From NCBI GenBank assembly GCA_021413845.1, contig JAIOPP010000021.1, positions 1 through 64,000 on the forward strand: a stretch of 64,000 nucleotides of DNA, written 5' to 3'. The stretch is from Planctomycetia bacterium (GTDB taxonomy: Bacteria; Planctomycetota; Planctomycetia; Pirellulales; PNKZ01). A program made the position numbers and the translations under genes. Of this stretch, positions 10,836 to 14,254 are shown one piece after another. Under the pieces are notes generated by a model. That model was not told the DNA's origin, did no database searches, and was given only the letters and a program-made list of their open reading frames with translations. How positions within the stretch are numbered: position 1 is the stretch's first letter; each line of letters begins with the position of its first letter.

Positions 10836-11756
10836 ATGGGCAAGGAAGCCAAATCCGTCGGGCCGGGCGTGCCCGTGCTCGGGCCGCTGTTCGGGATCTT
10901 GTTCGGCCGCCGCGTCGGGCCGTTGCTGGCGATCATGATCGTCTTCGGCGGCGGCGGCTATTGGGCTTGGTCGCGGCTGCGCGAGTCGGTCGTCGTCGAA
11001 GAGCATTATCGCGTGTCGTTAGAGTCGATCGCGGTCTCCCCACAGCCGGAGTGGATCCGAGCCGACGTGAAAAACGAAGCGCTGCGCGACGCCAGCCTGG
11101 AGTTTCCGCTCTCGCTTCTCGACGAGCAATTATCGGAGCGCATCGCCAAGGCGTTCGCGTTTCATCCCTGGGTCGCCGAAGTGAAGCAAGTTCGTAAGAC
11201 GGTACCGGCCGGCATCTTCGCCGAGCTCGTCTATCGCAAGCCGGTCTGCATGGTCGAGCTTCCTGACCGCCTGGGCCTTTACGCAATCGATGCCGGCGCT
11301 TATCTGTTGCCGACCAAAGACTTTCTCGATGCCCCGCGCAAGGCCGGCACTTATCCGCGACTCGCCGGCATCACGAACATGAACATGGGGCGCGTCGGCG
11401 TCCGCTGGCCGGATCCCGTCGTGCAAGGGGGAGCCCTCATCGCCGCGGCAACGGAGAACGCCTGGACGAAGCTGAGCCTCGCCCGAATCGTTCCCGCGGC
11501 GGAAAACTCGGCCGCCGCGACGCCGCAATTCGAACTACTCACGCGCGCAGGGACGCGCGTCGTTTGGGGTTCCGCGCCCGGCGCCGAAACCGGGGAGGAA
11601 ATGCCGGCGACTCGCAAAGTGGAGAGCATGCTCCGTTATAGAGCAGATCATGGCTCGTTGGAAGGAACGGCCGGCCCGCAACGGCTCGATCTGCGAGGTA
11701 AGTCGATCATCGCGACCGCTTCGATCAGAAACCCGACCGACGTGAAGCGACGTTAA
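10836..11756 (+). CDS. FtsQ/DivIB-like POTRA-domain membrane protein
   Basis: A 306-residue protein with a short cytoplasmic start, one membrane helix at about residues 28-46 and an extracytoplasmic remainder. Residues ~58-140 read as a POTRA domain: YRVSLESIAVSPQPEWI, then AFAFHPWVAEVKQVRKTVP and AELVYRKPVCMVEL. The last phrase matches the FtsQ pattern in which a strand 'R.P.A.V' follows 'W...V.V.R..P'. FtsQ/DivIB links the division machinery to cell-wall synthesis. The position straight after murB is the dcw position of ftsQ. No ftsA or ftsZ follows; the next gene is convergent and overlaps it by 4 bp. Assignment to FtsQ rests on topology, fold reading and context. Confidence 0.6.
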   Translation: MGKEAKSVGPGVPVLGPLFGILFGRRVGPLLAIMIVFGGGGYWAWSRLRESVVVEEHYRVSLESIAVSPQPEWIRADVKNEALRDASLEFPLSLLDEQLSERIAKAFAFHPWVAEVKQVRKTVPAGIFAELVYRKPVCMVELPDRLGLYAIDAGAYLLPTKDFLDAPRKAGTYPRLAGITNMNMGRVGVRWPDPVVQGGALIAAATENAWTKLSLARIVPAAENSAAATPQFELLTRAGTRVVWGSAPGAETGEEMPATRKVESMLRYRADHGSLEGTAGPQRLDLRGKSIIATASIRNPTDVKRR

Positions 11757-14254
11757 GTGCGTGCCGCCGGTAAGACGTGCGGAAAGATCTCTTCCAAGAC
11801 TTTGACGCTCACCGGCTTGACCATGTGGTCGTCGAAACCGGCATCGAGCGAACGGCGGCGATCTTCCGACTGACCGTAACCGGTGAGAGCTACGAGGTAG
11901 ATCGGCGCGAGTCGCGGTCGCTCGCGCAGCCGCTTCGCGACCTCATAGCCGCTCAGGCCCGGCAAGCCGATATCGAGCAACACGAGTTGCGGCAGGAACT
12001 CTTCGGCCTTTTCGACGGCCGAGATGCCGTCGTAAGCCACGACGACTTCGTGCTTCCAAAACTTACGCAGCATCGTAGCGAGCGTCATCGCCGAGCCGAC
12101 GTTGTCTTCGACAACCAACACCTTGAGCGGTAGCACCGGCCCCGGCTTCCATTCTTCGCGGCGTTCGACGGTCGTGGCGACTTCGTTCGCCAACCGCACG
12201 ATGAACTCGCTCCCCAGATCGGGCCCTTCGCTATGCGCTTCGACCGTGCCGCCGTGCATCTCGACGATGCTGCGCACGACGGTCAAGCCGATGCCGAGCC
12301 CCCCTTGGGCCCGCTCGACCGACCGATCGGATTGCGTAAAGAGATCGAACACTTTCGGCAACAATACCTTTTCGATTCCCATCCCCTCATCACGAACGTG
12401 AATCGCCACTCCTCCCTGCTCGCGCGTGACGAACAGCCGGACGTGCGCCCCTTCGGGAGAATACTTCGAGGCGTTGTGCAGCAGATTGGAAACGACTTGG
12501 CAGAGCCGAACCGAATCGGCCTTGAGATGAATCGGCTCCGGCGTGAAGGTTAGTTCCACCTTCTGCCGTTTGTGATCGAACAGCGGTAACGTCGTTTCGA
12601 CGGCGCGGCGCAGCACGTCCTCGAGCGAAACCGATTCCAAGCGGAGCTCGATCTTGCCGCGCATGATGCGCGAGACGTCGAGCAGGTCGTCGACGAGGCG
12701 GACGATATGATCGACCTGCCGCGACATGATCGCATGCAGCTCGGCCCGCATTTCTTCTTGGCCTTCCAGATCGCTGAGGAGCGCCAGCGCATTGCGAATC
12801 GGAGCGAGCGGGTTTCGCAATTCATGCGCAAGCATCGCGAGAAACTCATCTTTTCGGCGGTCGGCCTCGCGCAACTCTTGATGCAGCCGGGCGTTTTCCA
12901 AGGCGATCGAAGCACGGCGTGCCAAATCTTTCGCGACGTCGAGGTCTTGCGAGTGATAAGTGCGTCGCAGATCGGAAAGCCCGAAGACGATTCGGCCGAT
13001 CACGCGCGACTCGATCGACAACGTCACCCCGATCAGCGAGCGAGGCGCAAGAGACGCGAGCGCCGAGTTCGTCGGGTTCGTAGATGGATCGGCACCGAGC
13101 ATGCGAGCCATCGCCTCGGGCTCCGCGGTGAGTTGCGAACCGCTGGATGCTTCCTCGCCGGCGCCGCGGATGCCGACAGTGGGGCGCAAGTCGGCCAGGA
13201 TCGATTCTCGCGATGCATCGCCGTGAACACGGATGGCGTGCTCCCGGCTGCCGTCCGCTCCGAGCAGATCGACGAGGCACCAATCTGCGAATTGCGGCAC
13301 GGCCAGATGGGCGATTTTTTGAATCGTGCTGGTGAAGTCGACGAGCGTGGCGAAGGCTTCGCTGGCGGTGGAAAGAAAATGGGTGCGGCGTTCGGCGCGC
13401 CGACGTTCGGTGATGTCGTGGAAGACGAGCACAACGCCGCGAACCACTCCGTCTTCGGAGCGAATCGGAGCGGCGCTGTCGTCGATCGAGATACGTCGAC
13501 CGTGGCGCGTGAGCAACTCCGTGTGGTTCGCGAGACCGACCGTCACGTTGTCGCGCAGCACTTTGGCGACTGGATTCTCGACCGCTTTCTCGGTTCCTTC
13601 TTGAACGATGCGGAACACCTCTTCCAACGGCTTTCCTTCGGCGTCGGCCGCGTTCCATTCCGTGAGCGTTTCGGCGCAAGGATTTAAGAACGTGATCCGG
13701 CCTTCGGCATCGGTCGCCATGACGGCATCGCCGATGCTCGCGAGCGTGACCCGAAACCACTCCCGCTGCTCGCGCAGCGACTTTTCGGCATTCTTACGTT
13801 CGGCGATCTCCAGTCGCAGGGCTTCGTTCGCGGCGAAAAGCTCGTGAGTTCGATCCGTTACTTCACGTTCGAGGGCCTCGGGCGTCTTCATCCGCAATAC
13901 GCGGGGGACATTCGGAATGAGCGCCGCTACGGTCGCCCAAGAAACGACCGCGGTCACGAACTTGATGGTCCCTGCCAGTCGATAAGCCGGCCACCAGAAG
14001 ATGATCGCATCCATGAGATGCGTCGTTCCGCAGGCCAAAATGAAAGCGCCGAACAAGAGGAAGACCTTCTTAAACGGCAAGTCTTTCTTCCGGGCGGCGA
14101 AATAAACCAGGATGCCGGGAATCGTATAGTAGGCGCTCCAGATTGCGAGGTCGGAGCAGATATGCAACCAACCGTGCGCATCGGTCCAGTTACCGCAATG
14201 CCACCGCGCCGGAAAGTCCGACGTCTCGAACAGGTGCGTGAAAAAAGAAATCAT
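11753..14254 (-). CDS. Hybrid histidine kinase with ethylene-receptor-like sensor domain
   Basis: An 833-residue hybrid kinase. Residues ~29-120 form three membrane helices that read like the ethylene-binding domain of plant ETR1: Asp35, Tyr42, Ile45-Pro46, then Cys75 and His79 in CGTTH, and AVVSWATVAAL. ETR1 has Asp25, Cys65 and His69, the same spacing. Next come a coiled segment, a PAS domain (~162-280), a GAF domain (~295-455), HisKA with His477 (AHELRNP), an ATPase domain with N and G boxes (~575-690) and a receiver domain (~711-828) with Asp761 and Lys813. Copper-assisted ethylene sensing is inferred from the conserved ligands. No separate response regulator is adjacent. The gene faces the ftsQ-like gene and overlaps its end. 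Confidence 0.88.
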   Translation of the reverse strand: MISFFTHLFETSDFPARWHCGNWTDAHGWLHICSDLAIWSAYYTIPGILVYFAARKKDLPFKKVFLLFGAFILACGTTHLMDAIIFWWPAYRLAGTIKFVTAVVSWATVAALIPNVPRVLRMKTPEALEREVTDRTHELFAANEALRLEIAERKNAEKSLREQREWFRVTLASIGDAVMATDAEGRITFLNPCAETLTEWNAADAEGKPLEEVFRIVQEGTEKAVENPVAKVLRDNVTVGLANHTELLTRHGRRISIDDSAAPIRSEDGVVRGVVLVFHDITERRRAERRTHFLSTASEAFATLVDFTSTIQKIAHLAVPQFADWCLVDLLGADGSREHAIRVHGDASRESILADLRPTVGIRGAGEEASSGSQLTAEPEAMARMLGADPSTNPTNSALASLAPRSLIGVTLSIESRVIGRIVFGLSDLRRTYHSQDLDVAKDLARRASIALENARLHQELREADRRKDEFLAMLAHELRNPLAPIRNALALLSDLEGQEEMRAELHAIMSRQVDHIVRLVDDLLDVSRIMRGKIELRLESVSLEDVLRRAVETTLPLFDHKRQKVELTFTPEPIHLKADSVRLCQVVSNLLHNASKYSPEGAHVRLFVTREQGGVAIHVRDEGMGIEKVLLPKVFDLFTQSDRSVERAQGGLGIGLTVVRSIVEMHGGTVEAHSEGPDLGSEFIVRLANEVATTVERREEWKPGPVLPLKVLVVEDNVGSAMTLATMLRKFWKHEVVVAYDGISAVEKAEEFLPQLVLLDIGLPGLSGYEVAKRLRERPRLAPIYLVALTGYGQSEDRRRSLDAGFDDHMVKPVSVKVLEEIFPHVLPAART

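Follow-up and report, generated by a model that had tools for sequence, protein, structure and literature searches.

A planctomycete hybrid histidine kinase from the family of ethylene receptors (ETR1_N) that probably senses ethylene through copper

The window analysed here, i.e. the whole stretch of 64,000 nucleotides from a Planctomycetia bacterium, carries on its minus strand at 11753-14254 an ATG-started open reading frame of 833 amino acids that encodes a hybrid histidine kinase, and as homologues open with a similar segment (FFxxLFxTxxFPxRWxCG), the start codon looks right. At its N-terminus (aa 27-122, 13889-14176, minus strand, like all features below), the protein matches the ethylene-binding-type Pfam domain ETR1_N (PF25487) with 126.9 bits and an E-value of 3.9e-37, which is about 100 bits above the curated cut-off of 27 bits, and the match spans positions 2-97 of the 97 profile positions. 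The 7.08-Mb genome gave no other match to the profile, and 14 control genomes searched with it gave none. Behind the sensor follow a PAS domain (aa 167-281, 13412-13756), a GAF domain (aa 309-452, 12899-13330) whose match is weak and generic and is surpassed by that of a same-genus homologue (L035), a HisKA domain (aa 468-531, 12662-12853) with the phospho-acceptor H477 in HELRNP, a HATPase_c domain (aa 580-688, 12191-12517) with the N-box NLLHNA at 590, and a receiver domain (REC; aa 712-822, 11789-12121) with the phospho-acceptor D761 in LLDIGLPG and with K813. The preliminary description of this frame as a hybrid kinase with an ETR1-type sensor and a complete PAS-GAF-HisKA-REC output thus holds, with the HATPase domain to be added and with intact catalytic residues in kinase and receiver.

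For the sensor, AlphaFold2, with an input alignment of 42 exact translations, predicts helices at residues 25-55 (helix 1, 14090-14182), 62-84 (helix 2, 14003-14071) and 91-121 (helix 3, 13892-13984), followed by a coiled-coil-like signalling helix at residues 125-164 (13763-13882), with a mean pLDDT of 94.8. Helix 1 contains D35, Y42, I45 and P46, and helix 2 contains I72, C75 and H79, which means that all seven ethylene-binding residues of AtETR1, reportedly the seven defined by Wang et al. in 2006, are kept. Their spacing is identical to that of D25/Y32/I35/P36/I62/C65/H69 in AtETR1; the preliminary description had listed six of these residues with exactly this spacing and had not listed I72. 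The AtETR1 numbering of Asp25, Cys65 and His69 follows PMC12643061, with which the N-terminus used for the comparison agrees, and the seven residues are required for ethylene binding by AtETR1 (PMC11819568, PMC6682694). Across a set of 63 sequences of the family, with an effective number of 35, D35, Y42, I45, P46, C75 and H79 never vary, and I72 is conserved at 96% (weighted). About two thirds of these sequences were fetched by a pattern that covers FGAFIxxCG, and the conservation of I72, C75 and G76 is therefore biased upward, but D35, Y42, I45, P46 and H79 lie outside this pattern, and the sequences from a survey of 392 planctomycete genomes were fetched by profile and without the pattern. 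One of the latter (L005) has a Thr in place of I72.

The arrangement of these residues on the helices was judged from helical-wheel conservation alone and for a monomer. In helix 2, I72, C75 and H79 deviate by 20, -40 and 0 degrees from the conserved face, and in helix 1, D35, Y42, I45 and P46 deviate by 43, 23, -37 and 63 degrees from the conserved direction, and in both helices the conservation moment changes little when the key residues are dropped from the calculation. Being this close to the direction of conservation, the key residues, among them the Cys/His pair C75 and H79 as the putative Cu(I) ligands, appear to share a conserved and presumably buried helix face. A further conserved residue is Cys20 (14195-14197) in the RWxCGxW motif before helix 1, which in the family set is invariant wherever the N-terminal segment is present, and which is a candidate for a disulfide-dimer cysteine, the N-terminal Cys of plant and cyanobacterial receptors having its role in a covalent dimer (PMC6682694). 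A divergent family member on a Deinococcus aquaticus plasmid (L130, CDS 2845-4584) has no such N-terminal Cys, and its helix 1 carries Ala where the others have Pro, a natural variant for probing the pocket. No solved structure resembling the sensor was found by sequence, nor by fold at E <= 0.001. The sole fold match to the sensor model below 0.001 was a model of an unnamed viral protein of 289 aa (BFVD A0A8E4UZR7; E 5.5e-4, TM 0.59, 25% identity).

Relatives of the sensor are common. ETR1_N profile matches were obtained in 42 of the 392 sampled genomes of the phylum (about 11%), in 29 of 266 genera and in five of the seven sampled genomes of the window's family, at no more than three places per genome. 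A search of about 85,000 named species with one degenerate peptide pattern resulted in at least 444 confirmed relatives, the best 80 of which are from Planctomycetota and Bacteroidota, together with single records from Verrucomicrobiota, Acidobacteriota and Hydrogenedentota, and plasmid records add cyanobacterial, Azospirillum, Rhizobium and other family members. Three IMG/VR contigs classed as viral (L132, L133 and L134) have one 6.3-kb stretch in common, without differences, and on it a gene for a protein of 481 aa (2995-4437), which has a sensor 50% identical to the query and kinase-like sequence after it; these contigs may be mobile elements or bacterial DNA that was classed wrongly. HisKA and HATPase domains occur in all 25 scanned full-length proteins from outside the Bacteroidota, the window protein included, and REC in 21 of them. 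Within the genus, L035 has the domain order of the window protein, while L036 and L038 are of the type TM-GAF-kinase-REC, which is exactly the order of plant ETR1, so the PAS domain can be present or absent among close relatives.

In about 20 loci of Bacteroidota, the sensor forms a protein of its own, in most cases about 159 aa long, and in the loci inspected it is followed, usually directly downstream, by a membrane histidine kinase and then a small single-domain response regulator, an arrangement that, judged from the genes, is a split receptor. The seven residues are kept in the stand-alone sensors of L076, L077, L081, L083, L088, L091, L094, L096, L102-L108, L110, L111 and L113, whose position in full-length loci is about 5990-8050, and hosts of such sensors are Algoriphagus, Cyclobacterium, Aquiflexum, Belliella, Marivirga and other Bacteroidota.

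In a tree of the sensor (119 rows, 128 columns), in which many forks are unresolved, the window protein groups with L035, L036 and L038, all from Planctomycetota (support 100/99), the nearest named rows being Pirellula sp. PB1.007 and Planctomycetaceae MAGs. This group is inside a branch of 106 rows, mostly from Planctomycetota and Bacteroidota (99/90). A separate set of 12 rows comprises cyanobacterial, proteobacterial and plant sequences and three planctomycete sequences (100/89), and AzoEtr1 sits with the cyanobacterial and proteobacterial set, outside the branch of the window protein. AtETR1 is a long branch of unsure placement. The split is tracked by the motif that precedes helix 1: of the fetched sequences, 103 from the large branch have RWxCGxW, and three planctomycete and seven cyanobacterial or proteobacterial sequences have PHGxCxxW. 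We know of no member of the RWxCGxW branch that has been tested experimentally, and no ethylene-binding data for family members from planctomycetes or Bacteroidota were found in the accessible literature.

Among bacteria, as far as the accessible papers go, Synechocystis and Azospirillum have proven ethylene receptors (PMC11819568); reports of homologues extend to many other bacteria (PMC6682694, PMC7700396). AzoEtr1 of Azospirillum brasilense is a functional ethylene receptor, the first 130 residues of which bind 14C-ethylene saturably (PMC11819568). Its gene is most likely the one found in our L123, Azospirillum brasilense Sp7, the open reading frame of which fits the 525 aa of AzoEtr1. Like the window protein, with which it shares 42% identity over 96 aa, AzoEtr1 has the ETR1_N domain, the seven residues and a histidine kinase output, but as read by eye its sequence stops behind the kinase and lacks a REC domain, and its motif before helix 1 is PHGxC. 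Compared by reported domain order and not by sequence, the cyanobacterial GeiEtr2 of Geitlerinema sp. PCC 7105 resembles the window protein in having an ethylene-binding domain, PAS/PAC, GAF, kinase and a C-terminal REC (PMC6682694), so that this architecture is already known. SynEtr1 (Slr1212) of Synechocystis PCC 6803, likened likewise by domain order and not by residues, has PAS/GAF and kinase behind its ethylene-binding domain (PMC6682694), but it serves as a photoreceptor as well, and its signal goes to a regulator that is a protein of its own. AtETR1 shares with the window protein the kinase, the REC domain and 38% identity over 96 aa; it has no PAS domain, is located in the ER membrane, and signals via CTR1/EIN2. 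In the open-access literature no ethylene receptors of planctomycetes were found, and the subscription literature may list planctomycete homologues. With bacterial ethylene receptors established and the family common in Planctomycetota and Bacteroidota, the earlier suggestion that this protein by itself would widen the known range of ethylene sensing was overstated; by its sequence it is a further protein of a known and large family, from a branch in which apparently no member has been tested.

The surroundings of the gene consist of an unassigned 306-aa open reading frame beside a gene that by eye we take to be murB-like, and of a DUF456 gene, and a functional link to these neighbours was dropped because the set is not common to the ETR loci of the same genus. 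At the window locus, neighbouring genes gave no clue to the ligand, and no response regulator adjoins the gene. The genome has nine Hpt matches, two of them within short frames (136 and 182 aa), which makes a phosphorelay possible, and it encodes, elsewhere, one CopA-type ATPase above the curated cut-off. At 2-529, the window itself encodes the C-terminal part of a P-type ATPase resembling Cu-ATPases (match to TIGR01511 positions 374-542, with a score under the curated cut-off), which was given no weight as a RAN1-like partner, as it is 11 kb off and is cut by the contig start. Of the ethylene-producing routes, which also include EFE and methionine-derived ones, the search covered the nitrogenase-like one of the methylthio-alkane reductase type and gave no PF00148 match in the genome, so that the cell may depend on ethylene from its surroundings. 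Neighbour clustering of family members gave no copper-related recurrent neighbour, the recurrent ones being kinases and response regulators. In the same-genus genome L038 (1824-5037), a response regulator, a 654-aa kinase and, as recognised by eye, presumably a heme oxygenase-like protein are encoded just upstream of the ETR gene.

The sequence shows to which family the protein belongs, that its key residues are conserved, how its domains are ordered, which fold is predicted, that its kinase residues are intact and that the genome has Hpt and copper-ATPase genes, and the window protein is confirmed as a genuine member of the known ethylene-receptor family. It is likely that its sensor binds copper and ethylene, and the best explanation, which we consider probable, is that a hybrid histidine kinase in the membrane, belonging to the ETR1_N family, senses ethylene via Cu(I). 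Such a receptor would be a homodimer, perhaps cross-linked via Cys20, with Cu(I) held between helices 1 and 2 by C75 and H79 and with D35 helping. Ethylene binding to the Cu(I) would shift helices 1-3, and this shift would pass through the coiled coil to PAS and GAF and on to the kinase, which would phosphorylate H477 and then D761, from where the phosphate would be handed to a separate Hpt protein and finally to a regulator. We infer the downstream partner and the sign of the response, as we do copper binding and ethylene as the ligand.

That the window protein lies outside the AzoEtr1/cyanobacterial branch and differs in the motif before helix 1 counts against ethylene, and the separation from the tested AzoEtr1 is also in line with the main alternative, according to which the same pocket binds Cu(I) but the signal is copper itself or another copper ligand, such as CO. 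The invariant copper ligands of the family and the missing nitrogenase-like ethylene source would fit such a sensor as well, but Y42, I45, P46 and I72, which are required beyond the copper ligands, are also kept, and in the neighbour clustering copper-related genes do not recur next to family members; we regard this alternative as rather unlikely. Still less probable is that the sensor domain is a conserved module for anchoring in the membrane or for dimerisation and that the signal (redox, light or a soluble ligand) enters via PAS and GAF: these domains are there, and PAS comes and goes among same-genus relatives, but the invariant D, Y, P, C and H are not expected of a mere anchor, and the stand-alone ETR1_N proteins beside separate kinases in Bacteroidota have kept the domain without PAS or GAF. 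That a membrane segment with three helices resembles the family by chance, for which nothing speaks beyond the shortness of the domain, is refuted by a profile score of 127 bits against a cut-off of 27, with one match in the genome and none in the controls.

The value of the finding, with ethylene sensing via Cu(I) as the preferred reading, is that it points to the large Planctomycetota-Bacteroidota branch. We see even chances that this RWxCGxW branch, the split receptors of Bacteroidota included, represents a second lineage of gas receptors, and that ethylene or another copper-binding gas is a common environmental signal for bacteria that are neither photosynthetic nor tied to plants. Should the branch bind ethylene, this sense would reach far beyond bacteria that are photosynthetic or associated with plants, and in soil and water the gas would act as a signal of general use; should it bind copper and not ethylene, this would be of interest for the original use of the ethylene receptor fold.
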